Origin: Sialis fuliginosa
Lineage: Eukaryota > Arthropoda > Insecta > Megaloptera > Sialidae
Direction of reading: 5' to 3'
Assembly (NCBI GenBank): GCA_961205875.1
Contig: OY540810.1
Location: 38,130,001 to 38,194,000, forward strand
Length of the DNA stretch: 64,000 nt
A model generated the notes under the pieces. The model did not search any database. It saw only the letters and a program-made list of their open reading frames with translations, and was not told the DNA's origin. A program made the position numbers and the translations under genes. The stretch's first letter is position 1. Every line of letters starts with the position of its first letter. Below, piece after piece: positions 330 through 23,500 of this stretch.

Positions 330-592
330 CGAAAGACGTTAAATTTTCTAACTGCGTATAAAGGAAATCAATGAGACATCTCCTCGCCACTATTTCAGCA
401 TGCGTGTCATTAATAGCAGCTCCTTGAACGCTAATGTGGTCTCCAGATATACACTTCGTACCTGTTGTTACGCAGATCAGTTTTGTGCTTTCTAGTGAAT
501 AGTTTTCAGTCATCACTATGCCTGCGATTACTTTACGTTTTTGTATAGTTGTGTTATCACGAGTCAAACTGTCAAATTTTTGTAAAACCAAT
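330..592 (-). CDS. Adar: Adar coding exon 4: start of deaminase domain with intact HAE
   Basis: The acceptor is TTTTCAG before 592 and the donor is TTTCG/GTGAGT after 330. The encoded segment LVLQKF ... RKVIAGIVMTEN ... CVTTGTKC ... NDTHAEIVARRCLIDFLYTQL shows the ADAR-type deaminase fold. His and Glu of HAE are both present, so this copy is probably catalytic if the unseen exons are intact. Confidence 0.95.
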
Positions 593-2957
593 CTGAAAAT
601 TGAAAACGTTTTTATGTATTATTATGTGCAGAATTTATTTCATAAACAAACTTAAAGAAATTAAAATACAATACAAAAAAATTGTTGATAAATAAAGTAT
701 ATTTATGCCTGGTATTATAAAGAATTCGCAAATTAGCTTCCAGCTAACGCTATCTGCTAGGTATTAAATATAAATGATAATCTTGATGCGCAATAAGTAT
801 TGCCAAGTGTACCTCATAAAAAGCATAGCATTTACATTATTATACATTTATTACCACTGCTTTAAAATATCACACAATTTCATAACAATTTGACACCTAG
901 CAAATAATATATACCGGCCATTAATTTGACAAATAATGAAAATTAGTTCTTGTGGCTTCAGAAAAGAAGTTAATGTCTGATATTATTAAGAAATAACTAA
1001 AATTTGTTAGATAACAAGCACTTTAAAATGGTATAACAAACTTATTTAACAGTTCCCTTGAAGTTCCATGATGTCTATTACAGTTTAGCATATGCGTGGT
1101 AAGTAAAAAATAACGGTATTAAAATGTATACATGAAAAATATATATTACAGTCAAGTCACTAATTGAGAGAATATGAACCCCGTTCAAAATGCTTGTTAA
1201 CTTTTATTTTTGTTGATTTCTTTATATCTGACATAAAAGTAATACACCATTAATTAACTTACTCTCCAATATAGTCGACAAGCATTTGCGGTATCGTCCT
1301 TTTATGCATTAATCCTGCTGGAGATGAATTAACATTTGGCATAGAAAATGTTGAAGGTGACATGTTACAGATTTTACTTAGTGCCGCTCTTGCTGCAGCT
1401 GCTTTAGCATGTTTTTTACTTCCACCTAAATTATAATTAAATGGATTATAATGAACAAAGATTATAAATAAATTGGAATTGTATTTCATCGTATATTAGT
1501 TTAGAATTAACAATTTTCTAACCTACTACAAATATTTAATAAAACTAGAATTATTATCTTACCTGTACCAAAAAATAATTCACCTTTCACCTCAACAGAC
1601 ATTTTAAATTTTGCTACAGAATCGTTAAGAGATTCACATTCATATGTTAAGCCAGGAAACATCTCGTTCAAGATCATTACAGGTCCTTTAGCTACAACAG
1701 CAGGTATTTTTGGCGACTGAACAATATTACTTACACCATTCTTTGGTTTTTCTTGAACTATATCATCGCTAGTGAAATCGACATTGTCATTTATTGTACT
1801 AATATTAACCATAGAATTATTCTTTGGGAATTGTATAAAAGACTGTAGAGCATTTCTAGCTGCAGCAGCTTTTGCCAGTTTTTTATTTTTTCCTTCGCCT
1901 ATAAACTTTTCACCATCGATGTCTACCGAATAAGCAAACAGAGGGGCATGAGTAGGACCTGACTGACTAATTAATTGATAAGTCAACCCTTGTTTGACTT
2001 CATTTAAAATTGCCACAGGACTTTTTGTTGCTAGCGTGACTGGTGATAGTATCAGAGTTTTTTTTCTTTTCATCGACATTTCTGAATAAAAATAAAATAA
2101 TTTATAGTTTTGATATATTTTATAGGCTAATTTATAAAAGCATTTCTTATAACAAACAACAGACAGTTAATTATTATATATATATAATATATAAATTATT
2201 ATATATTATGTAATAATTATTTTAAGCCCTGTAGTATCTGTTATATTTTAAAACGATGTTTTTAACATAGTAGGTCATTAAAAGAAATATTCTTAATAAA
2301 AAGTTAAATAACATATTTCATTCATTTTATATCTAATTATCACATATAAAAATAGTATAATTATTTGATAATTCTCATGTGGTATTTGATTACTAAACTC
2401 ACCTCGAATAAAACAGTATATCATCAGTTTACAAGAAAAACACAGTAAGTCAATTTTCGACTCAAGTACAAAATTATTCCCCTCCATCAACTGGTTATAT
2501 CAAAAGATATAATTTTGCCTTAACACTGAAATTTATATAAATAGGTTTTTACCAAGTCTGAAATAAGATATTTTATGCAGAAAGAAGATATATAATCCAT
2601 TGAATATTTAAAAAAAATAGATACAAATTCATGAAAAATTTTAAACTTGTTTTTTTCAAAATCAAGTTTTGTGATTTGCTTTGCTTGTAAGCTGACAATA
2701 TAATATTTTGATATGACAACTCGAGTCAGTAACGAATTAACTTTAATATGTTAACAATGAGTAGATACGTACGTGGAGGGATAGTAGTTCTTTAAACTAC
2801 AATATGAAAATTTCAGTCAATTATAAATATAAAATAAGATGTGAAATGGGCATCCAAGGATTATATCTCTAAACTGAAGATCCATCAGCGCTTAATCGCA
2901 CGTACCTGATTGATCTTCCAAAGGACGCTTTCGTGTTTCTTTATTTCCGTTTTCCAT
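330..2957 (-). CDS. Adar: Adar, adenosine deaminase acting on RNA (5' half, four coding exons, truncated by window edge)
   Basis: ADARs convert adenosine to inosine in double-stranded RNA, mainly in the nucleus. Four exons join in frame: 2957-2906, 2081-1563, 1425-1263 and 592-330, giving 332 residues before the window ends. The order is a short basic N-terminus, dsRBM1 (about residues 39-101), a linker carrying NVDFTSDD, dsRBM2 (about 149-206, split by an intron after FFGT), then the start of the deaminase domain with TGTKC and NDTHAE. H309 (codon 402-400) and E311 (396-394), the zinc ligand and proton-shuttle residues of the family, are present. All introns have GT/AG ends and matching phases. 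This is the two-dsRBM layout of insect Adar. The remaining catalytic exons (both zinc cysteines, C-terminus) must lie beyond base 1. The start at 2957 is preferred over the internal ATG at 2079 because the small upstream exon reads in frame into it. Confidence 0.93.
593..1262 (-). other. Adar: Adar intron 3 with a decayed repeat
   Basis: No coding signal is visible. About 705-1215 resembles the dispersed repeat also seen near 4240, 31630 and 34140, which shares a GGTATTATAAAG-like end and an 'aaagtgcttgttaac' tract. It is probably an old MITE. Confidence 0.5.
1263..1425 (-). CDS. Adar: Adar coding exon 3: end of dsRBM2 and linker to deaminase
   Basis: The acceptor AATTTAG and donor GA/GTAAGT bound 163 bases. 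The exon completes dsRBM2 with the basic helix start GGSKKHAK and AAAARAALSKI. It then gives a linker with a run of Ser and Pro, and PQMLVDYIGE leading into the deaminase domain. It ends with two bases of a split Glu codon. Confidence 0.93.
1563..2081 (-). CDS. Adar: Adar coding exon 2: dsRBM1, linker and first half of dsRBM2
   Basis: The acceptor is TTATTCAG before base 2081 and the donor is CAG/GTAAGA after 1563. The exon carries one dsRBM1 with helix 1 (ILNEV), the GPTHAP loop that contacts the RNA minor groove, and the basic KNKKLAK start of helix 2. A linker of about 45 residues follows, then the first part of dsRBM2 (KGPVMILNEMFPGLTYEC ... FFGT). It is the single-copy counterpart of the giant exon at 9594-14753. 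The sequence KRKK near its start is probably part of a nuclear localisation signal. Confidence 0.95.
2082..2905 (-). other. Adar: Adar intron 1
   Basis: AT-rich intron between the N-terminal exon and the dsRBM1 exon. A short TA-rich palindrome lies near 2178-2215. No gene is seen. Confidence 0.6.
2906..2957 (-). CDS. Adar: Adar coding exon 1 (N-terminal 17 codons)
   Basis: This exon is too short for an ORF scan. It is bounded by an acceptor TTTTATTAG (exon begins at 2971) and a donor CAG/GTACGT (last exon base 2906). It encodes a basic, KRP-containing N-terminus starting MENGNKETRKRP and ends in phase 1. Spliced to the exon at 2081 it reads straight into MSMKRKK. Joining this exon makes the Adar start match the family's basic, nuclear-localisation-like N-terminus. 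The call rests on splice signals and frame, not on transcripts. Confidence 0.78.
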
Positions 2958-2970
2958 TTTTGATTCAGCC

Positions 2971-3430
2971 TCTAATAAAAGTAAATATCAAATTTATGAA
3001 CAGTTTTATTAAAATGCTTAAGGTAGTAAGTAATATTATGTAAATATTAAAATCTATTTTTTACATAATATTAACTTTCATATTATAGTACTTGTGTTTT
3101 TTTAATAAATAACATTGACCATTATAAGATTACATCAATGTATATTTTGCACTTACCTTGTATTTAATTTATATACTTATAAATAAACTTTATATTTTCA
3201 GATACAAGTTTGATCAATGCTTCCCAAAATATACATCAATAGTAAAATAATGATTACATTTTATTTAAATAAACATAACCTGATTTCATTTTATTCTTCA
3301 TAGTTTTATTTATCTTCTAGAAAATTAATTCACGATTTTTAGGAAGCAAAATAAATATACAACTGCTATCACATAAAATCGTACAACGATTATAAATATA
3401 AATAAAATAACAAACAGCACATCTACAGCA
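2971..3430 (-). promoter_or_regulatory. Adar: Adar 5' block with probable 5' UTR exon
   Basis: A strong donor AAG/GTAAGT (last exon base 3157) lies upstream of the start exon's acceptor at 2973-2972, which suggests a 5' UTR exon ending at 3157. The stretch 3240-3430 is clearly homologous to 16200-16390 upstream of the expanded paralogue; shared words include 'aagcaaaataaatatacaac' and 'aataatgatta'. The conserved block is therefore probably leader or promoter DNA copied with the gene. The transcription start cannot be placed. Confidence 0.5.
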
Positions 3431-6557: not shown

Positions 6558-6790
6558 CGAAAGACGGTAAATTTTCTAACTGTTTGCGTAGGAGGTCAAT
6601 GAGATGTCTTCTTGCTTCAATTTCAGCACGTATGTCATTAATACCTGTCTTCTGTACGTTAATGTCTCCAGATTTACATTCCATACTTGTTACATACGTC
6701 AGTTTTGTGTTTTCCGGTAAATATTTTTCATTCATTGTAATACTAGCAATTATTTCATGTTTTTTTATAGTCGTATTTGTGCATGTTAAT
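6558..6790 (-). CDS. Paralogue deaminase exon, zinc-binding His lost (RAE)
   Basis: The acceptor ATTTTTAG precedes 6790 and the donor TTTCG/GTGAGT follows 6558, at the same sites as in Adar exon 4. It is 30 bases shorter than that exon but ends in the same phase. The protein aligns throughout (NTTI, ENTKL, VTS, GIND, ARRHLIDLL, QLENL, SFG). TGTKC has become TSMEC and NDTHAE has become NDIRAE: CAT to CGT at 6630-6628 changes His to Arg, while Glu (6624-6622) remains. Without the His ligand the zinc site should fail. The frame is intact, so this looks like a retained non-catalytic segment rather than a decayed exon. Confidence 0.88.
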
Positions 6791-9700
6791 CTAAAAATAC
6801 ATATTATTTTTAGTTTTTTTTTGGTATAAAAGTCTACGAACACTAAGGCCCAGTTTCTCAATATAAGTTTAACTTCAGATTACGTTAAACTTCACCTGAG
6901 GTTTAAACTTCACATAATGTCTAGTTTAAACCAATTCAGTTTAACTCTTGCGCATGCGCAGTAGAGCTTTTTGTTACATTAATCTAAAAATTAACTGTAC
7001 TTTATTTTGTAATACTAAATATCGACGCTCCCCACGAAAAGTAACATGTTTCAATTCTCTGACGAATAGTAACATGTTTGCGATTTTCGCGGTTTGAGAC
7101 GTAAACTAGCACGTTTCAAAATTTATTCGACAACTAACACGTTTGAATTTTAGCCACGAAAACTAACATATTTCAATCGTAGCCACGAAAACTAGCACGT
7201 TTGAAATCTTTACTACGAAAACTAGCATGTTTCAACTTAGCTTGCGGGAGAAATTGGATAAATGATTCGCTTAATAAGTAAGCAAGGGCTTTTACTCTGA
7301 TAACAATTTTTCATAGATGAACAACAAATTTTTTTCTATGCTCAATCCTTCTTTAAAAAAATTTTTTTTTTTCAATTTTCAAGTTGAAACATTCGAGAGA
7401 ATTCAATTGAAACATTCCGATTTCAATTTTGTTCAAATAATTTTTTCTCCAAACGAGTTAGTTTTCGTGATGAAAACTCGAATCGTGCTAGTTATCATTA
7501 TAAAAACTCGAAACGTGCTAGTTTTCGTCTGAGAATTGAAACGTGTTACTTTTCGTAGGGAGCGTCGATATATACTATATATATATATATACAATTATTG
7601 CACTAGTATAACTAAATAATTATAATTATTTAGTTATACTATGTTATTTAATGATAAAATCATAACAAATTGTGCTATTATAAAGTTAAACCTCATGTGA
7701 GGTTTAACTTTTTTAGTTAAACTTCACATGAGGTTTAACTAATATAAGAGCACAATTTGTTATTATTTTATCATTAAATAATTATAAAAACACAATAATT
7801 GCAGTAGTATAACTAAATAATTATAATTATTTAGTTATACTATGTTATTTCATGATAAAATCATAACAAATTGTGATATTATAAAGTAAAACCTCATGTG
7901 AGGTTTAACTTTTTTAGTTAAACTTCACATGAGGTTTAACTAATATAAGAGCACAATTTGTTATTATTTTATCATTAAATAATTATAAAAACACAATAAT
8001 TGCAGTAGTATAACTAAATAATTATAATTATTTAGTTATACTATGTTATTTAATGATAAAATCATAACAAATTGTGCTATTATAAAGTTAAACCTCATGT
8101 GAGGTTTAACTTTTTTAGTTAAACTTCACATGAGGTTTAACTAATATAAGAGCACAATTTGTTATTATTTTATCATTAAATAATTATAAAAACACAATAA
8201 TTGCACTAGTATAACTAAATAATTATAATTATTTAGTTATACTATGTTATTTAATGATAAAATCATAACAAATTGTGCTATTATAAAGTTAAACCTCATG
8301 TGAGGTTTAACTTTTTTAGTTAAACTTCACATGAGGTTTAACTAATATAAGAGCACAATTTGTTATTATTTTATCATTAAATAATTATAAAAACACAATA
8401 ATTGCAGTAGTATAACTAAATAATTATAATTATTTAGTTATACTATGTTATTTCATGATAAAATCATAACAAATTGTGATATTATAAAGTAAAACTTATT
8501 ATTAACCTAAAATTAATTTCAAACTGACAGTTCATCCGTCAGTTAAAAGTTAATCTTAAGATTAACTCATAATTTTTAACTGGACATTGAGAAACACATA
8601 TTTTGTTTAAACTTTAGTTTAACTGGGACATGGAGTTTAAACTCATATTGAGAAACTGGGCCTAACAATAAGTACTTACTTCCAGTAGAAGGGGGGGCTT
8701 CTTTGGGCTTTAATACGAAACCACAGACGTGATTTCTGGGAAGTTTCAAATACTTATAATCAGGCCCTGAGAGAACTTCAATTGGACCCGGGCCAAAATC
8801 ATTTTCTAACTAATTCTTTCTATATGTATTATCAATGAATTTAGTTTGAACTCGTTTTATGTAAGATAATATAATTTATAAATATTTATGGCTCTTCTAA
8901 CCCCCCCTCTATCTGGGTCTACTTATAATTATTTTTAACAGAACTACGATACATTGAAAAAGTGCCACACTAATTTTGACCGATAGTGTACATTTGTTAT
9001 ATTTTATAAGTTTAAGAGAACCCCGTGATAAATATGGTAGAATGAATCTTGGCTTCTGGATGCAAGCCGCGTCGATTTGGTCATGTTATCGGCCAACGTT
9101 TCGTCACACATTGCAAAATAAGAGCCCTGAAGATGTCCACTGCAACGTGTGACGAAACATTGGCCGATAAGACGATAAAATCGACGTGGCTTACACCCAG
9201 AAGTCAAGATCCATATCAAGATCACCGCGGAAGCCTCAAGACTTGTATAACATGGTAGTATATTTATAATAACATTCATTTGCTTACCTTTTTTGCGTGT
9301 ATTCCAAAGCAGATGAATTAACATTTGGCATAGAAAATGTCGATGGTGATATGTTACAAATTTTACTTAGTGCTGCTCTAGCTGCAGCTTCTTTAGCGAG
9401 TTTTTTACTTCCACCTAAAATTAAATTAAAGTGATTATATTCAACGAAAAATATCTTTGTATTTCATGATGTATTATCCTAAATTAATAATTTTTGTACG
9501 AGTTTTTGCCAAAAAAAAATTATTATAGGCAAGCATTATAAGCAATACCCTACTATAAATATTTATGTAATAGGATTAGAATTGTTATCTTACCTGTACC
9601 GAAAAATAATTCATCTTCCACCTTGACAGTCATTTTAAATTTTGCAACAGAATTATTCAGAAATACACACTCATAGGATAAGCCAGGATACATGTTGTTT

Positions 9701-12700
9701 AAGATCTCTACAGGTCCTTTAGCTGCAGGAAATTTCGGCGGCTGATTCAGAATGATACAACCTCCTTGGGACGTTGGTTTTTCAAGAACTGTTTTATCAC
9801 TAGTGGCATTAACAGTGCTTTTTATTGAATTTGTATTAATCTTCGAATCATTCTTCGGGGTATGTATAATATACAGTAGAGCACCTTCAGCTGCGGCAGC
9901 TTTTGCAAAATTTTTATTTTTTCCTTCGCCTATAAACTTCTTACCATCGATTTCAACCGAATAAATAAATATGGGAGCGTTTTTTGGACCTGACTGACCA
10001 ATGAATTTATATGTTAACCTTGGGTGAATTTGATTTAAAATTGTTACAGATCGTTCAGCTATAATTTCAGGTAATTTTGACGATTCATTGCCATTTATAC
10101 AAATCGGTTTATCATGAACACCAGTATAATTGACTTTACTTGTATCAACCGTCAAATCATTCTTTCGGGAATGTATAATAGACTGTAAAGCACGTTCAGC
10201 TACTGCATATTTTGCTAGATTTTTTTTTTCCCCTTCGCCTATAAACTTTGTACCATCGATTTCAACCGAATAAGTAAATATAGGAGCATTTTTTGGACCT
10301 GACTGACCATTGAATTTATATGTCAACCCTCGATGAATTTCATTTAAAATTGATACAGATCGTTCAGCTATGATCGTAGGCAATTTGGACGATTCATTGT
10401 TATTCATACAACTTTCTACTTGCATTGGTTTATCACGAACTTTATTATCCCCTGTAAAATTAACAGTGCTATCTATTGCATTTATATTTATTTTCGAATC
10501 ATTCTTCGGGGAATGTATAATAGAAAGTAGAGCACATTCAACTGCAGCAGCTTTTGCTAAATTTGTATTTTTTCCTTCGCCTATAAACTTCTTACCATTG
10601 AATTCAACCGAAAAAGTAAATATAGGGGCGTGTTGAGGACCTGACTGGCTAATTAACTGATACGTTAACCCTCGTTGAATTTCATTTGAAACTACTACAG
10701 ATCGACCAGCTTTGATGGTAGGCAATTTTGCAGACTGATTGTGATTGATACAACTGTCTCCATATATTGGGTTTTTATGAACTGTATTGCCACTACTGAA
10801 ATTGTATGTATTATTAATTGCAGTTGTATTAATCATCGAATTATTCTTCGGAGATTGTATAATAGATTCTAGAGCATATTCAGCTGCGGCAAATTTTGCC
10901 AGACTTTTATTTTTTCCTTTGCCTATAAACTTTTTACCATCGAACTCAATCATATAAGTAAATATAGGGGCGTGTTTAGAACCTGACTGCCCGATAAACT
11001 GATAAGTCAATCCTTGTTGAATTTCTTTTGAAATTTCTGCAGAAGGTTCTGTTTCAATGGCAGGTAATTTCGGCGACTGATTTTGAATAATACAACCTTC
11101 TTCGATCGTTGGTTTTTTACGAACTTTATTACCGCTAGTAAAATTGTCTGTGTTATTTATTGTATTTTTATTAATCTTCGAATTATTCTTCGGGGAATAT
11201 ATAATAGATAGTAAAGCACGTTCAGCTGCTGCCGCTTTTGCTAGATTTTTATTTTTTCCTTCGCCTATAAACTTCTTACCATCGATTTCAACTGAATAAT
11301 TAAATATAGGAGCGTTTTTAAGACCTGACTGATCAATGAATTTATATGTTAACCCTGGATGAATTTGATTTAGAATTGTCACAGAACGTTCAGCCATAAC
11401 GTCAGGTAATTTTGACGATTCATTGCCATTAATACAAGTCTCTCCTTGCATTGGTATATCAGGTACTTTATTGTCATTAGTGCTATTTAATGCACTTTTA
11501 TCAAACTTCGAATTATTCTTCGGGGAATGCATAATATAAAGTAGAGCATATTCAGCTGCTGCATACTTTGCCAGATTTTTACTTTTTCCTTCGCCTATAA
11601 ACTTCTTACCGTCGAATTCAACCAAATAAGTAAATATAGGGGCATGTTTAGGACCTGACTGACCAATGAATTTATATGTTATCTTTCGGTGAATTTCATT
11701 TAAAATTGCTACAGATCGTTCAGCTATGAATGTAGGTAATTTCGACAACTTTGGTTCTTCAAGAATTGTTTCATTACTATTGAAATTGGCAGTGTTCTTT
11801 ATTGCACTTGTATGGATCGTCGAATCATTATTCAGGGAATATTTAATAGACAGTAAAGCGCATTTAGCTGCGGCAGCTTTTGCTAAATCTTTAGTTTTTC
11901 CTTTGCCTATAGATTTCGTACCTTCGTATTCAACTGAATATGTAAATATACGGGGTTTTTTAGGACCTGACCGACTAATTAATTTATATTTTAACCCTTG
12001 ATAAATGTGATTTAAAATTGCTAAAGTTCGTTCAGTTATAATTTCAGGTAGTTTAGGCGATGTATTGTGATTCATACAACTTTCTTCTTGCATTGGTTTT
12101 TCATTAACTGTATTATCACCAGTAAAATTGACAGTGCTCTTTATGTTACTTGTATCACCCGTCGAATTATTTCTAAAGGAATGTATAATAAATTGTAAAG
12201 CACGTTCAGCTGCGACAGTTTTTGTTAGATTTTTATTTTTTCCTTCATCTATCAACTTCGTACAATCGAATTCAACCGAATAAGTAAATATAGGGGTTTC
12301 TTTAGGATCTGACTGACCAATGAATTTATATGTTAATCCCGGATGAATTTGATTTAAAATTGATACAGATCGTTCAGCTATAACTTTAGGTAATTTCGAT
12401 GATTCATTGTCATTTATACATTTTTCTACTTGCATAGGTTTATCATGATTTGTATTATCACCAGTAAAACTTACAGTGCTATTAAGTGCACTTGTATCAA
12501 CTGTCGAATTAGATTGTGGAGAACATTCAGCTGATGCGGCTTTTGATAGATTTTTCTTTTTTTCTTTGTGTATAAACTTTATACCATCGAATTTGACAGA
12601 AAAAGTAAATATAGGGACATGTTTAGTATCTGGCTGATTCGTTTCTTGTTTGATTTCTTTTGAAATTGTAGCAGAAGGTTCGGTTTCAATGGCAGGTAGT

Positions 12701-14753
12701 TTCGACGACTGATTCTGAATGATACAACCTTTTTCGCTCGTTAGTTTTTCATGAACTTTATTATCGCTAGTAAAATTGTCAGTGTTTTCTATTGCATTTG
12801 TATCAATCTTGGAATTATTATTTGGAGAATGTATAATAGATAGTAGAGCACATTCAGCCGCGGCCGCTTTTGCTAAATTTTTTGATTTTCCTTTGCCTAT
12901 AGATTTCGTACCTTCGTATTCAACTGAATAAGTAAATATACGGGGTTTTTTAGGACCTGACCGACTAATTAATTTATATTTTAACCCTTGATAAATGTGA
13001 TTTAAAATTGCTAAAGTTCGTTCAGCTATAATTTCAGGTAATTTAGGCGATGTATTGTGATTCATGCAACTTTCTTCTTGCATTGGTTTTTCATTAACTG
13101 TATTATCAGCAGTAAAATTGACAGTACTATTTATATTATTTGTATCAACCGTCGAATTATTCCTAAAGGAATGTATAATAAATTGTAAAGCACGTTCAGC
13201 TGCGGCAGTTTTTGTTAGATTTTTATTTTTTTCTTCATCTATCAACTTCGTACAATCGAATTCAACCGAATAAGTAAATATAGGGGTGTCTTTAGGATCT
13301 GACTGACCAATGAATTTATATGTTAATCCTGGATGAATTTGATTTAAAATTGATACAGATCGTTCAGCTATAACTTCAAGTAATTTCGATGATTCATTAT
13401 CATTTATACATTTTTCTACTTGCATAGGTTTATCATGATTTGTATTATCACCAGTAAAACTTACAGTGCTATTAAGTGCACTTGTATCAACCGTCGAATT
13501 AGATTGTGGGGAACATTCAGCTGATGCGGCTTTTGATAGATTTTTCTTTTTTTCTTTGTGTATAAACTTCGTACCATCGAATTCGACAGAAAAAGTAAAT
13601 ATAGGGACATGTTTAGTATCTGGCTGATTCGTTTCTTGTTTGATTTCTTTTGAAATTGCAGCAGAAGGTTCGGTTACAATGGCAGATAATTTTGGCGACT
13701 GATTCAGAATGATACAACCTTCTTCGCTCGTTGGTTTTTCATTAACATTATTATCGCTAGTGAAATTGGCTGTGTTTTTTATTGCATTTGTATCAATCTT
13801 GGAATTATTCTTCGGGGAATATATAATAGACAGTAAAGCACATTCAGCTGCGGCAGTTTTTGCTTTTATTTTATTATTTCCTTCGCCTATAAACTTTTTA
13901 CCATCGAATTCAACCGAATAAATAAATGTAGGGGCGAGTTTAGAATCTGACTGACCAATGAACTGATATGTCAACCTTTCTTGAATTCTACTTAAAATTG
14001 CTACAGATCGTTCAGCCATGATGGTAGGTAATTTCAACGATTCATTTTCGTTTATACAACTTCGTTCGTGCGATGGTTTTTCGCTATTTTTATGATCGCC
14101 AGTAAAATTTACATTGCTATTTATTTCATTTATATTAACCACCGAATTATGCTTCGGGAATTGTATAATAGACTCTAGAGCACATTTAGCTACGGCATAT
14201 TTTGCCAGATTTTTAGTTTTTCCATTGCGTATAAACTTTTTACCATCGAATTCAATCAAATAAGTAAATATAGGGGCGTTTTTAGGACCTGACTGGGTAA
14301 TGAATTGATATACTAACCCTGGATAAATGTCATTTAAAATTGCTACAGATCGTTCAGCTATAATGTCAGGTAATTTCGACGTCTGATTATTACTGGTACA
14401 ATCTTCTTCGAATGTCGGTTTTTTAAGAACTGTTTTATCACTGTTGAAATTTGCTGTTTTTTTTATTTTACTTTTTTTAACTATCGAATTACTCTTCGGA
14501 GATTGTATAATAGATAATAGAGCACATTCAGCTGCGGCAGCTTTTGCTAAGTTTTTACTTTTTCCTTCGCCTATAAACTTCTTATTATCGAATTCAACCA
14601 AATAAGTAAATATAGAGGGATTTTTCGGACCTGACTGATCAATGAATTTATATGTTATCCCTTGCTTTATTTCATTTAAAATTGTTACAGGACTTTTCGT
14701 TTCTTGTGTGCCTGGAGATGACGTTTGAGTTTTTTTCCGTTTCCTCGTCATTT
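6558..14753 (-). CDS. Adar paralogue with 16 dsRNA-binding motifs and a defective deaminase start
   Basis: This is a tandem duplicate of Adar. Three exons join in frame: 14753-9594 (ATG at 14751), 9414-9288 and 6790-6558, together about 1839 codons without a stop. Domain order is a basic start (MTRKRKK), 15 copies of dsRBM1 plus linker, one dsRBM2 split by an intron at the same codon as in Adar, a shortened linker, and an ADAR deaminase segment with RAE in place of HAE. Such a long open frame in AT-rich DNA is not expected without selection. dsRBMs bind A-form RNA, so the protein should bind long dsRNA very strongly. The altered zinc site and missing later exons argue against editing. It may act as a dsRNA sink, a competitor of Adar or Dicer, or a scaffold; these roles are inferred. 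The 3' end is unknown: it may stop at 6460 by intron retention or splice into exons not recognised. The upstream exon encoding MENG in Adar has no visible counterpart here. Confidence 0.9.
7020..7570. mobile_element. Nested TIR element with 'acgaaaactagcacgtttc' repeats
   Basis: The outer arms run from TATCGACGCTCC to GGAGCGTCGATA. Inside both arms are short direct repeats of about 30-40 bp around 'cgaaaactagcacgtttc', at least five in the left arm. Related fragments occur at 25420-25650 and near 26030. Confidence 0.78.
7592..8495. repeat. 201-bp palindromic tandem array, about 4.5 copies
   Basis: Units start near 7592, 7792, 7993, 8193 and 8394. Each contains the self-complementary word 'aacctcatgtgaggtt', the palindrome around 'aattataatt', and paired arms 'acaaattgtg' and 'cacaatttgt'. 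In RNA every unit could fold into a long hairpin. Copies are nearly identical, so the array is young. Confidence 0.9.
8663..9287. other. Intron of the paralogue with an inserted MITE
   Basis: Intron between the dsRBM2-completing exon and the deaminase exon. No extra exon is recognised. It holds the inverted-repeat element at about 9045-9245. Confidence 0.5.
9045..9245. mobile_element. MITE with 'cttctggatgcaagccgcg' arms
   Basis: The left arm 'cttctggatgcaagccgcg' and right arm 'cgtggcttacacccagaag' are inverted, and 'gacgaaac(g/a)ttggccgata' occurs in both halves. A fragment recurs at 22560-22600. It sits beside the changed donor of the paralogue exon at 9288. Confidence 0.7.
9288..9414 (-). 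CDS. Paralogue exon: end of dsRBM2 and shortened linker
   Basis: The acceptor TTTTAG precedes 9414 and the donor AAG/GTAAGC follows 9288. It completes dsRBM2 with GGSKKLAKEAAARAALSKIC and shares SPSTFSMPNVNSS with Adar. It then diverges (ALEYTQKR) and ends 12 codons earlier than the 163-base Adar exon, at a different donor. Both exons leave two bases over, so the reading phase is kept. A MITE lies just beyond the donor (about 9045-9245). Confidence 0.88.
9594..14751 (-). repeat. Tandem dsRBM array, 16 units, mostly 342 bp each
   Basis: Unit limits read from the protein (minus strand): 1 14751-14368; 2 14367-14026; 3 14025-13684; 4 13683-13378; 5 13377-13036; 6 13035-12694; 7 12693-12388; 8 12387-12046; 9 12045-11734; 10 11733-11404; 11 11403-11062; 12 11061-10720; 13 10719-10378; 14 10377-10069; 15 10068-9727; 16 9726-9594 (dsRBM2 type, completed at 9414). 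The typical unit is 114 codons. Units 4 and 7 (102 codons) lack the GLTY strand and the end of helix 2. Units 9, 10 and 14 have shortened linkers. The array lies inside an exon and must have grown by in-frame unequal exchange. Confidence 0.93.
9594..14753 (-). CDS. Giant single exon: 15 tandem dsRBM1 units plus first half of dsRBM2
   Basis: The acceptor TTTCTTTAG precedes 14753 and the donor CAG/GTAAGA follows 9594, exactly as in the Adar exon at 1563-2081. Residues 1-1719 plus one base are encoded. Most units keep the RNA-contact features: helix 1 (ILNEI or ILNQIH), the SGPKNAP loop, and K-x-K-x-LAK at the start of helix 2. Each linker repeats NFTSDN-like and C-I-N-x-N-x-S-x-KLP words, showing that dsRBM1 and its linker multiplied together. 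The N-terminal 20 residues match Adar's MSMKRKKT...TKSP closely. ATG at 14751 is taken as the start because no upstream coding exon is visible. Confidence 0.95.
11734..13683 (-). repeat. Recent 990-bp in-frame block duplication (units 4-6 and 7-9)
   Basis: Units 4-5-6 and 7-8-9 are nearly identical. On the plus strand the word 'tttttctacttgcatagg' starts at both 13411 and 12421, exactly 990 bases apart, and the following 130 bases differ at only a few positions. Both copies carry the same damaged units (4 and 7), so the damage came before the duplication. This shows a three-unit, higher-order step in the growth of the array. Confidence 0.92.
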
Positions 14754-16146
14754 CTAAAGAAAAATAAATTAATATTTGTTTTAATAATTTAATTGGTAAT
14801 CTCCCTTTTTCCCCCTAAAAAACTTAAGAGCTGTGTGAAATGTAGATTAAACACATAATTACTTGATATTTGTGTTCCCCCAAGGTATATAAAGACAAGG
14901 TAGTCTCAACAATTTCTTGACCAATCAGCGTTGGCGCGGGAATTGACGTCACCTGGGGGATCTATTCAAATGTCATACATTTTTAATAGAATATTAATTA
15001 CAAAAAAATCCTTTATTTATTCTTGTTTTCGTATTTTTTGATATTTTAACAACACATACCTACAATCAAATAAGTACAAATTCGACATAGCAAAATTATA
15101 AAAAAGCTGTCAAAGACAATTTGGTCAATTCGGGAAGCATAATTTTTACCATTCTTAAGTTGGCAATACGTTATATGATTCTGACAGCACTTTATGATTT
15201 TGCTATGTCGAATTTGTACTTATTTGATTGTATGTGTTGTTAAAATATCAAAAAATACGAAAACAAGAATAAATAAAGGAATTTTTTGTAATTAATATTC
15301 TATTAAAAATTTATGACATTTGAATAGATCCCCCAGGTGACGTCAATTCCCGCGCCAACGCTGATTGGTCAAGGAGATCTTGAGACTACCTTGTCTTTAT
15401 ATACCTTGGTGTTTCCCATAAATATTTTTTTAATATAATTTTTAATAATACCCGTAATCTCAATAAAGTTACAATATTTAAGTTAGAAATAACAGCAACT
15501 ATGTATATTCACTATGGTCAGTGACTACTCTGCCACCTGCTGGATAAAACTTGAACCCTAGCTTCTATATTTCCCAAACAGCGATTTGAAAGTTTTAAAT
15601 ATAATGTAAAAATTATGTTAATAAGTAATTAAAATTATTAAAATACAATCAAGAATAAAAACAAAAACTATTTTTATCAATATTTTTTGCAAAATCTTAT
15701 ATTAACTTATATTAACAGAGAGACAAAAAATATAATTTTAAAGATTAAAAAAATTAAGTTTACTCAAAAATTACAGCCTGTACACTAATTCGAAACAAAA
15801 AAGTCACTTATACCCGTCCCTCTTGGCCTTCCCCCACCCCAACCAACCCCCTACCGAAAGCCGGCGATGGGTACAACTATAATAATGTTAAACCGGTCAA
15901 ACTATGTATATTCATAATTCTTATCTTACATTCCAAGGGTCAAATCACTGCACTGTGGTTATAGTGCATTCTTTATTTTCGCCAATATTACATTTATTTA
16001 TATTTCCTACGTAATCAATTTATATTGATATTTTGTATTTATATTCAATACATTTCAAATTACTTTAATTTAATAAATTATAATAATTAATGTTCAACGT
16101 AAAAAACACTTGAGAATGTGCTAATTCTTGTATATTAACCGTTTAC
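14754..16146 (-). other. 5' intron of the Adar paralogue
   Basis: It lies between a probable 5' UTR exon (donor GAG/GTAAAC, last base 16147) and the giant exon. No counterpart of Adar's MENG exon is seen. It contains the foldback element at 14880-15409. Confidence 0.5.
14880..15409. mobile_element. Foldback element with arms of about 230 bp
   Basis: The arms (about 14880-15113 and 15181-15409) are near-perfect inverted copies beginning CCAAGGTATATAAAG, with a loop of about 67 bases. They include 'gacgtca' and 'ccaatcagcg'. There is no coding capacity. A shorter relative lies at 23041-23173. If transcribed in the paralogue's intron it would form a dsRNA stem over 200 bp long. Confidence 0.9.
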
Positions 16147-16390
16147 CTCTTATTTAATTTAGGCACATACTGTTGTACATTACAAAAATAACAAAATGTA
16201 GACAAATATCGAAATAATGATTATATTTTATTCAAACTAACTTTTATTTTTCATTGTTTTGTTTATTTTTTATCATAAATGAATTCATAGATATTATTTA
16301 AGAAGCAAAATAAATATACAACCTTTACCAAATAAAATTATTTAGTAATTATTATTAACATAAATAAAATAACAAAGTTCAATATGATGA
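16147..16390 (-). promoter_or_regulatory. Duplicated 5' block of the Adar paralogue
   Basis: 16200-16390 is homologous to 3240-3430 upstream of Adar, and a donor-like GAG/GTAAAC matches the Adar leader donor position. It is probably the paralogue's 5' UTR exon and flanking promoter DNA, which marks the upstream end of the segmental duplication. Confidence 0.5.
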
Positions 16391-19863: not shown

Positions 19864-20528
19864 TCAACAATGGAAATGTGGCTTTTTTAGTGGAAGACCT
19901 TTAGGCCCATCTACATATTTACATATATCGAACCCTAATTTCGACAGGGGGTGGCAGTTTTCTTTGGGATTACCCCACCGACCTCTGAAAACAAACCATT
20001 CAGGTTCTTCAGCATCACTTCTAATAATTTGTAAATTTTTCCAAGTGTGCCATGGATATCCAAATCCATTCAAGTCATATAATCTAGGGACTTTAACATA
20101 TCTATGTTTACCAGGTGCTGTCCATAGCCCATGCGATCCTTGGGCTGAGAATAGTATTGGATGTTGACCATAAAGGGATATAGTTTTCGGGAACGCAGGC
20201 TTTTGTATTATTCCTTTTCTGGTTTCATCCATTGCGAATAAAAATGTCCCAACGCTGGGTTCATAGTTATAATAAGCTCCTGCATCGTGAACTGATACGT
20301 AGATAGAGGTAGGTCGATCTTTACCAGAGAAATACATGCTCACATGTTCCCAATCACCTACGTGGTGACCGTATTGGCGATATTGTCCTAAACATTTTTG
20401 GAAGACTTTGGGAATTGGAAGATGACCTAGAATTTTCGTATCGAATGTGCAAAGAGTTTTGCCTTGGTTGAATGGGTAGAACATCCAGTAGGTTACGTGA
20501 AATCTTGGATAACGTATTCCCCAAGAAT
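19864..20528 (-). CDS. Vps62-domain gene exon 3 (main domain, C-terminus)
   Basis: The acceptor ATATTATAG precedes 20528. It encodes the last 220 residues with the HVTYWMFYPFNQGK and GDWEHVSMYF motifs that define the family. The stretch before 20528 in the same frame is hydrophobic AT-rich intron translation and is excluded. Confidence 0.9.
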
Positions 20529-23500
20529 CTATAATATAAAAAAATGTTATAAATAAAATTATACAGTAAATAATATACATATAACAGAAAATATTTTGAA
20601 AAAAATAAAATAAAAACACACAATAAAAACAATATAGTAGCGTACCCAGAAAAAAATTCGGAGGGGGGGGGGTAATTATTTTTTTTGTATCACAATTTTA
20701 CAATTGTTAAATTAAATAAAGTATATTATGAGGAGGGGGGGGGGCTAAACCCTAACACCTCACTTTGTCCCTTTGGGTGTGCCACTGGATAAATATTAAA
20801 TCATTTTGAGTAGCTTGTAATTTTTGAATAACTTTTAAGAATTTTATGTAAACATAAGACCTAAAATTTAGTAAATAACAAAAAAATATACATGAGATAT
20901 CGCTTGCGTGAAATTAAGGCTAAATAGCAGCTGTAAGACATAAAATCCATGAAGAAGAAGAGGTTAGGTAATACAGATTTCTGTTATGATAGTCGATAAA
21001 ACAGGTCGCGCGTACAAATTTTACTCCCATTTTTCGTCATACAAAGTAGCCTATTTCCTTCCTCAGAATACAAGCTATCTCCCTGCCAAATTTCATCAAA
21101 ATCGGTTCAGCGGTTTAACCGTGAAAAGGGTACAAACAGAGAGACAGACAGACACACTTTCGTATATTGGTATGGATACATGGTTCATCTGAAAAAGTAC
21201 AACAAATCCAAAAATAATTTTATCTTATTACATGCTGATTTCTTTTTTAGCGCTGATAAAACAAGAAAAAAAGGGAAAGTCAATATTAAGGAAAAAACAG
21301 TTTTTATTGATCTTTTAATTGACGTTTTTTCTATAGATAACACGTTCACCTACCTGCAAGTCTATATTTTTCATCCCTCCCTTTTCATTAAATATATCCA
21401 CATTATATGTCCACTCCTTAAATCTACTTAACACTTTATAGGCCAGTTGGAAATTCTGTTATTAATTATTTTAAATATATTGTTTGTATTTTAGTTGATA
21501 GCAATATTATATACTCATAAATAGTATAAGTTATGGCAGCTATATGAGCAAGGTTTACTGTTTTTGTGATTGACGGGCTTCTTTCTGTAATTCTCATCAG
21601 TGGTGTAGATAGCTTTTTGCGATGGGGGGGGGGGGATTTTCTTGTATTTTAGTCGATATTTGTATGACGTGTTGAAGTTCACTGCAGGAAATTTTACTAA
21701 AAAATTTTGAATTTTTGATTTCGTTAAAAGTATGTTTATTGTATAGAAAATGACGTGAAAAGTTGAAATTTTCAAACCGCAGGTCTTTATCTCAAACCGT
21801 TCTCGAGATATAGCCTCTCAAAGTTTTAGTTTTTTCAAATTTTTGGAGAAAAAAGGTCATAACTTTTGAACGCGTGATCGGAATTGATTTTAGTTGACGG
21901 ATTTGAAATCAGCGTGTCAAAATCTATATAATGACATGTATAATACTTTAAAATCCGACAAAAAAAATTTGGCCAAAAATCGACATTTTTTTAAGATGTA
22001 TATTGAATTTTTTTGATTTTTCGTGAAATTTTTTTTTTCGAATTTTAAGGTATTATACATGTCATTATATAGATTTTGACACGCTGATTCCAAATCCGTC
22101 AACTAAAACCAAGTCCGACTACGCGTTCAAAAGATAGAGCCATTTTTCTTCAAAATTTTGAAAAAACTGAAACTTTGAGAGGCTATATCTCGAGAACGGT
22201 TTGAGATACAGACCTGCGGTTTGAAAATTTCAAATTTTCACGCCATTTTTTATACAATAAACATACTTTTAACGAAATCAAAAATTCGAAATTTTTTGGT
22301 GAAATTTCCTGCAGTTGTAAAAGTTAATTTGTGTAGTTGAAAAATTGCAAGTAAAAAATAATAAAAGGTTACTATAATTTGTAAGAGAGAAATATACCAA
22401 GTGTATAGAAAAAAGTAAAAAAAATAAGGTATTTGCTGCTGAGAAATTTTCTTAAAATAACCCATAAATATTTCTAATTCAGTACATTTAATTAAAAAAT
22501 AGCCATTACTGGGGTCATATCCATGACTAGTGCCAGTACCTTATTCTTTTATAGAGAGTCGTTTGACGAAACGTTGGCCGAAATAACGATCAAGATTTTT
22601 TTCGATTTGTATTTTATCCTACTGGCCGGTAAAGTGTTAATATGTTTTCAAGATTGTATAATAACAAACGACAGTGCTCACCATCGATTGTGTTATCGAG
22701 CGTGTTCTCGTCAGGCTGTAGGAGGTGGTGGAGTTCCTTCCCCCACGAAGACTTACACTCTGTGACCACAGCGTAGACTGGCACTGAAGACAATTGGGGG
22801 TTCCTCCCGTGGAGAAAACTGCTCGCATTACGAAGCATCGTATCTGGAACGATTATCTGATGTTTATTGCGTGCGAGTGCGTGCGTGCGTGAGTGTGAGC
22901 GTACGTGTGCGTGTGTGATTGTGGGCGTGAAGTTATGTAAAGATGACCACTCATGGGAATGATTTTTTATTAGATTTTTGTATTTTTTGTTTATAGGTTA
23001 AATTTTACTGATTTAAAAAAAATGCTTCAAAGGGTTTTAAACAAGGTAAGTTAATGTACAGGTTGCCTCAGTAGTTTTTGACCAATCAGCTTTTTACTCT
23101 TCACATTTGGGCACCCCAGATGACGTATTTCCCTCTCTCGCACCGAGCTACTGAGGCTACCTTGTACTTTACATACCTTGGTATTTAATTATGTTAAACT
23201 TGATATAAAATTAAATAATGAAAAAGATAACCGATGATGTTTGTTTTAATATTTTTGTATCTGTTGTAAGCGATTCTGACCTTTAGGGTGGCAGACGACT
23301 TCTGTAGCCCATAGTACATAATGTGTATGCTTTACTTTAGGAAGTGGGAGTAAAGACTGGAGAGAGATTAAATAAAGATAAATCGGGTTACGAGTTGTTT
23401 TTGTTTAGATCCCGGTAATTCAGTTATAAGAGAGTACTGGTCATGTAATACTTTAAGCGTTTGCAGAGAAAGAATTAAATAGGTATTGTTTATCTCTTTT

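Follow-up and report, generated by a model that had tools for sequence, protein, structure and literature searches.

The DNA analysed here, referred to as the window, is a stretch of 64,000 nucleotides (C2:38130001-38194000) of the 392 Mb Sialis fuliginosa genome. It holds the first exons of a canonical Adar and, upstream of these, a second ADAR-derived gene, the array copy, in which dsRBM1 is repeated many times within one exon (Table 1). This exon, aA, is made up of 2 nt, an ATG at 14751, a 16-codon leader, 15 units of dsRBM1 plus linker, each 102-115 codons long, and the start of dsRBM2. The first-pass annotation had described a single open frame of 1,719 codons in one giant exon with 15 dsRBM1-linker copies and dsRBM2; the frame is confirmed, running on the minus strand from the ATG at 14751 to the splice donor after 9594, and all 15 copies are present, with units 4 and 7 degenerate and below the Pfam cut-off. 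The start of dsRBM2 is also found there, but only about its first 41 residues are encoded by aA and the domain is completed in exon aB (9414-9288).

Table 1. Features of the array copy, of canonical Adar and of their surroundings (positions within the window; PF00035 scores are given for single units).
Feature	Position	Strand	Remarks
Candidate duplicated 5' untranslated exon, array copy	16147..16376	-	GT donor after 16147; aligns with 3157-3414
Foldback (hairpin) element	14880..15409	.	Between candidate 5' exon and array exon; copies elsewhere in genome
Array exon aA	9594..14753	-	5160 nt; AG acceptor before 14753, GT donor after 9594; stop-free
Unit 1	14359..14703	-	PF00035 37.5 bits
Unit 2	14017..14358	-	PF00035 26.5 bits
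Unit 3	13675..14016	-	PF00035 33.8 bits
Unit 4, degenerate	13369..13674	-	PF00035 13.3 bits, under cut-off; 5- and 7-codon losses
Unit 5	13027..13368	-	PF00035 27.3 bits
Unit 6	12685..13026	-	PF00035 37.5 bits
Unit 7, degenerate	12379..12684	-	PF00035 13.4 bits, under cut-off; 97% DNA identity with unit 4
Unit 8	12037..12378	-	PF00035 27 bits; 96% DNA identity with unit 5
Unit 9	11725..12036	-	PF00035 36.6 bits; 86% DNA identity with unit 6
Unit 10	11395..11724	-	PF00035 42.9 bits
Unit 11	11053..11394	-	PF00035 42.4 bits; AlphaFold dsRBD fold
Unit 12	10711..11052	-	PF00035 40.7 bits
Unit 13	10369..10710	-	PF00035 35.2 bits
Unit 14	10060..10368	-	PF00035 37.8 bits
Unit 15	9718..10059	-	PF00035 44.4 bits; best PDB sequence match ADAR2 dsRBMs
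dsRBM2, N-terminal part	9594..9717	-	32/43 residues identical to canonical dsRBM2
Array-copy exon aB	9288..9414	-	dsRBM2 C-terminal part and shortened linker
Array-copy exon aC	6558..6790	-	Deaminase start; RAE for HAE, TGTK lost
Candidate 5' exon, canonical Adar	3157..3414	-	GT donor after 3157
Canonical Adar exon cA	1563..2081	-	Single dsRBM1 and dsRBM2 start
Canonical Adar exon cB	1263..1425	-	Remainder of dsRBM2
Canonical Adar exon cC	330..592	-	Deaminase start with HAE

Canonical Adar lies downstream of the array copy on the same strand, with 12.7 kb between the exon starts of aA and cA, and its exons D-G continue beyond the window, from C2:38124069 down to about C2:38105645. It encodes 599 residues with the HAE, PCG and SCSD motifs and matches human ADAR2 at 8.4e-149. 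A search of the genome for A_deamin listed seven matches, confined to C2 and C11, and among these the canonical Adar on C2 is the only complete ADAR-type gene. The deaminase gene on C11 was rejected as canonical Adar: its frame opens with a Met right before the deaminase, none of the PF00035 matches listed falls nearby, and its first exon matches ADAR2 at merely 1.1e-15. By eye we take it to be ADAT1-like; no ADAT1 chain is among the nine matches of its first exon. Array units account for ten of the 24 PF00035 matches listed genome-wide. A dsRBM-like frame at C11:18134235-18134801, ADAR/NF90-like by eye, matches unit 11 weakly (E 0.07 and 0.5), and a dsRBM match at C14:10454989-10455147 contains two in-frame TAA codons and may represent either a dsRBM copy in decay or an exon whose reading runs on into an intron.

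Beyond aA, the array copy has its own versions of the next two Adar exons. Exon aB measures 127 nt compared with 163 nt in the canonical gene (36 nt less), with its donor moved and the phase kept, and 34 of 43 aligned residues are identical to the canonical ones; exon aC is 30 nt shorter than its canonical counterpart, again with the phase kept, and shares 46 of 77 aligned residues. AG or GT is present at all six exon borders, and the joined exons aA, aB and aC give 1,839 codons in frame with zero stops. The intron between aB and aC carries, at window positions 7591-8495, a 201-bp tandem repeat of 4.5 copies that are 98% alike; by eye, a palindromic core can be seen in every copy. The two candidate 5' exons (3157-3414 and 16147-16376) both end in AG|GTAA and are 71% identical over 199 columns in their best block, a divergence close to the synonymous-site level, so that the pair gives no evidence of constraint. 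Later deaminase exons of the array copy were not found in the 104 kb searched. With its own aB and aC and no such later exons in the stretch searched, the array gene is, as judged by exon content, a partial duplicate that arose in tandem and covers the 5' half of Adar. Hence, the first-pass annotation was right about the ADAR origin of the gene, but a stand-alone full paralogue is rejected in favour of a 5' duplicate with a broken deaminase start.

In exon aC, the catalytic HAE motif has become RAE through a change of CAT to CGT, and loss of this zinc-ligand His should abolish ADAR editing. When human ADAR2 is used as the outgroup, the array side shows changes at 18 of the 77 sites in aC and the canonical side at none; among 85 sites of dsRBM2, eight changes fall on the array side and two on the canonical side. 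Clear constraint on aC was considered and rejected: once changes are polarised against human ADAR2 and the two branches are modelled separately, the pairwise omega of 0.33 is seen to come mostly from the canonical branch. A full deaminase domain with HAE and two Cys zinc ligands is not encoded by the exons of the array copy found in the 104 kb, which supply about 77 residues of the domain and not a whole deaminase-like domain, and on these features the copy cannot be classed as an ADAR enzyme. It does combine ADAR-derived dsRBDs with lost catalytic residues, and by its sequence it would behave chiefly as a catalytically dead relative of ADAR, with far more domains than known members of that group have.

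These exons could also be read as an alternative 5' cassette of a single Adar locus, spliced into shared downstream exons, a layout that would resemble gene clusters in which the first exons vary and the last ones are constant. Joined as aC-D, the full-length product would be a pseudo-ADAR, inactive and about 2,124 residues long; if aC were skipped (aB-cC), the product would be an active ADAR, about 2,134 residues long and carrying as many as 16 dsRBMs. All four joins tested (aC-D, aB-cC, aA-cB and aC-cA) run in frame to the canonical stop, although such phase matches are expected by duplication alone. No deaminase exons past aC were found for the array copy in the 104 kb, yet its aC donor is intact, and canonical Adar, read in the same direction, follows next downstream. 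To reach D, cC or cB, a join would nevertheless have to bypass nearer canonical acceptors, and the changes in aC (18 to 0) would remove catalysis from any product that uses this exon for its deaminase. We regard a cassette as the main rival reading, possible but on the unlikely side; if spliced to the shared exons, the locus would produce the ADAR with the largest known dsRBD array.

The repeated domains are for the most part recognizable dsRBDs of the ADAR type. Scanned singly against PF00035 (Pfam dsrm, cut-off 23 bits), 13 of the 15 units pass with 26.5-44.4 bits, canonical dsRBM1 reaching 50.2 bits, and a scan of the whole protein returns 12 stretches at E 0.001. In units 4 and 7, codons are missing at two places, 5 of them near strand 1 and another 7 near helix 2. 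Two units, 11 and 4, were modelled with AlphaFold: unit 11 shows the alpha-beta-beta-beta-alpha fold with a domain pLDDT of about 90 and has ADAR2 dsRBM1 as its best PDB match, and unit 4 yields no confident model (mean pLDDT 42.8).

RNA contacts were examined in 11 columns taken as homologous to those of ADAR2. The last of the three region 3 lysines is present in 15/15 units and the other two in 13/15 and 14/15; the loop Lys is found in 14/15, the loop Gly and loop Pro in 10/15 each, and the helix-1 Glu in 7/15. In units 3, 4, 5, 7 and 8 the binding-loop Gly is replaced by Asp, and the domain charge is -1 in unit 5 and 0 in unit 8. The first-pass annotation had taken GPKNAP and K-x-K-x-LAK to be conserved in most units and had seen in this a sign of selection for RNA binding. 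In their exact forms, however, GPKNAP occurs in 3/15 and KxKxLAK in 7/15 units, with GPxxAP in 5/15 and a looser binding-loop pattern in 7/15, and the contact columns are as variable as the other domain columns (2.7 versus 2.5 changes per column, p = 0.88), which weakens the motif argument; contact-site conservation thus fails as proof of RNA binding.

Does the array then serve as a protein-protein scaffold in which the dsRBDs, like those of type B, are kept for their fold and not to bind RNA? Variation is lowest in columns that are for the most part hydrophobic or fold positions, together with some lysines, and the helix-1 Glu and loop Gly are variable, which would suit such a role; the retention of the region 3 and loop lysines and the pI above 8.5 in 11/15 units argue against it, and we consider a scaffold of this kind quite improbable. 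From the residues present, about half of the units appear likely to bind RNA; binding is uncertain for those with the loop Asp (3, 4, 5, 7 and 8), of which units 4 and 7 are unlikely binders.

The unit sequences also record how the array grew. Apart from the pairs 4/7, 5/8 and 6/9, unit pairs share 66-85% DNA identity, and the near-identity of units 4-6 to units 7-9 indicates that the last step was a three-unit duplication, the likeness of which drops in the linker of unit 9 (76/105 positions). The duplication of Adar itself is not recent, given a dS between the array copy and canonical Adar of about 0.38 for dsRBM2 and 0.93 for the deaminase exon. In the history that we favour, the 5' half of Adar, comprising the candidate 5', dsRBM, dsRBM2 and first deaminase exons, was duplicated in tandem, and in the upstream copy the dsRBM1-linker segment was multiplied in frame to 15 units, probably by unequal exchange; this copy retained its open frame and splice sites and, as predicted from its sequence, lost deaminase function. 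An origin of the repeat unit in which dsRBM1 and dsRBM2 exchanged sequence at helix 1 is not supported: 11 of the 14 unit starts are clearly nearer to array unit 1 or canonical dsRBM1 than to either dsRBM2 start, and for the starts of units 2, 5 and 8 that of array unit 1 is nearest by DNA.

Selection on the array was assessed by stop codons and by codon models. In 2,000 runs that simulated neutral change under HKY on the midpoint-rooted DNA tree of the units, starting from their consensus, stops numbered 31.4 on average and 11 at the least, and on average 1.9 of 15 units were left stop-free, whereas 0 stops and 15/15 stop-free units are observed. Omega, fitted by a purpose-written codon-model script, is 0.66 for all columns of the 15 units (2dlnL 16.54), 0.60 for the domain part (2dlnL 14.12) and 0.74 for the linker (2dlnL 3.73, not significantly below 1); with units 4, 7, 8 and 9 excluded, the values are 0.70 (p = 0.0014), 0.61 (p = 0.00097) and 0.82 (p = 0.26), respectively, the linker value again not being significantly lower than 1. 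For the newest duplication omega is 0.41 between units 4-6 and 7-9 (p = 0.0011) and 0.34 between units 4-5 and 7-8 (p = 0.021), and by NG86 dN is lower than dS in 96 of the 105 unit pairs; gene conversion among units could bias the omega values. On the array branch, omega is 0.43-0.60 for dsRBM2 alone and 0.45-0.67 for the deaminase exon alone, and a value of 1 is not rejected for either (p from 0.06 to 0.24 over the two); tested jointly they give p 0.007-0.052, varying with the omega assumed for canonical Adar. Taken as sequence statistics, these results indicate that purifying selection on the array is weak but real and that the deaminase piece is evolving near-relaxed. They support selection that keeps the array coding, and the dN/dS comparison among units, a check proposed in the first-pass annotation, indicates weak purifying selection.

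The modest departure of omega from 1, the two degenerate units and a deaminase exon indistinguishable from neutral on the array branch would also be compatible with a non-functional relic before decay, or with satellite-like amplification that kept its frame by chance. Such an origin is improbable in view of the missing stops, the selection detected since the newest duplication, the splice sites and phase retained through exon shortening, and the age of the split from canonical Adar implied by dS. An assembly artefact, for which the near copies 4-6 and 7-9 might be taken, is very improbable, since outside this block the units differ by 15-34% in DNA and the assembly rests on HiFi reads at 65-fold with a QV of 63.7, as reported in PMC11549539. 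The same report refers to public poly-A RNA-Seq data for S. fuliginosa (ERR11496096).

Building on what can be read from the DNA, namely the anatomy of the gene, its frame and splice sites, the loss of the catalytic His and the weak purifying selection on the array, we tentatively favour the view, without giving it even odds, that the array copy encodes a multi-dsRBM protein, catalytically dead, which binds dsRNA and acts as a competitor of, or a buffer for, Adar and Dicer-2. The copy would be transcribed and translated, and its 13 sound units together with dsRBM2 would jointly bind dsRNA with high avidity. Like ADAR3, ADR-1 and squid ADAR/D-like, the protein might hold long endogenous or viral dsRNA, leaving it less accessible to Adar and to the Dicer-2 sensor; the role as a dsRNA sink, scaffold or antiviral factor suggested in the first-pass annotation is an inference. 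Published observations bear on several of these steps. The affinity of ADARs for dsRNA is reported to rise with the number of dsRBDs (PMC11120146), and squid ADAR/D-like is described as inhibiting sqADAR2, and not sqADAR1, in vitro (PMC10278661). In flies, inactive Adar makes active ADAR less able to rescue, and in the view of the authors the inactive protein averts some of an immune induction that Dicer-2 mutants show; loss of editing alone nonetheless leads to immune induction with the inactive protein present, according to the same source (PMC7101428), so that at the normal level dsRNA binding cannot fully stand in for editing.

A narrower version, possible though doubtful, is that of a dedicated dsRNA chelator in which up to 14 working dsRBDs mask long-duplex endogenous dsRNA from Dicer-2 and Adar. 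It would have been selected in a genome with dispersed long-hairpin elements and would mask by binding and not by editing. The foldback element beside the array exon is 530 bp long with arms of about 230 bp. A genome search gave 1,804 candidate places, and the best 40 of these, when scored, yielded 84 matches, including 41 full-length rows with 95-100% identity and opposite-arm rows of mostly 92-96%, with one at 82%. Foldbacks including their spacers make up 11% of the window and, across 17 non-random loci of 10 kb each, 0-32% of the sequence; with this coverage long-hairpin RNA is a plausible load on dsRNA-binding proteins; a causal link from hairpin load to evolution of the array would be speculation. 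Upstream of the array copy, an open frame at 19864-20619 on the minus strand weakly matches Vps62 (E 0.00016; 20.6 bits, under the curated cut-off of 22.1).

The array was also considered as a stand-in for lost RNAi proteins, but no sign points to such a loss, as RNAi-type genes are found in the genome. These include two Dicer-type places and frames named by eye as Staufen-, Loqs/R2D2- and Pasha-like. The Dicer-type places come from three PF03368 matches (C14:12565119 and C2:13130961-13132447), the one on C14 lying inside an open frame of 1,638 codons.

We know of no dsRNA-binding protein with as many dsRBDs as the array copy, the usual count being one to about five, and the 15-fold array beside an intact parent gene suggests that the number can far exceed this range. 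The closest relative is insect Adar (ADAR2 type) at the same locus, with which the array copy shares dsRBM1, the linker, dsRBM2, the first deaminase exon and the exon junctions; it differs in having 15 dsRBM1 where Adar has one, and a broken deaminase fragment where Adar has a complete domain with its catalytic residues. Insects are described with a single Adar in PMC10937787.

Catalytically dead ADAR-like proteins are the second group for comparison. Vertebrate ADAR3, C. elegans ADR-1 and the ADADs belong to this group, whose members retain a complete deaminase-like domain with only a few dsRBDs. Squid ADAR/D-like is likewise presented as catalytically dead in PMC10278661. As in ADAR3, ADR-1, the ADADs and the squid protein, ADAR dsRBDs are combined in the array copy with a deaminase activity that is lost, here as predicted from sequence, and competition with active ADAR has been demonstrated or proposed for such proteins. 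In contrast to them, the array copy holds in its own exons only the start of the deaminase, and its dsRBM1 is multiplied. The array therefore offers a test of whether the editing-independent dsRNA masking of ADAR can be split off into a protein of its own, as well as a natural tandem-dsRBD series for avidity studies.

Further parallels concern dsRBD number and the absence of an enzyme domain. Aedes Loqs2 is also an insect dsRNA-binding protein that arose by dsRBD duplication under relaxed purifying selection, with omega values of 0.44 and 0.49 and some positively selected sites; as described in PMC10809485, it is derived from loqs and has two dsRBDs and no array. The Staufen-type protein of PMC6477676 binds dsRNA without an enzyme domain, as the array copy would, and differs in its domains and in their number, about five; a Staufen-like gene, named by eye, sits separately in the S. 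fuliginosa genome. A search for array relatives in IMG/VR gave 523 pattern matches, of which 0 were confirmed. The first-pass annotation had stated that no protein with 16 dsRBMs was known, and in keeping with this no comparable dsRBD array was found in searches of the open-access literature on ADAR and dsRBDs. The number of dsRBDs varies between lineages among ADARs with extra copies and in fish PKR: one to three are reported for fish PKR, squid ADAR2 has one extra, and Hydra ADAR has five, the latter cited as unpublished data in PMC11334849. The highest count in these systems is thus five, compared with 15-16 in the array copy of S. fuliginosa.
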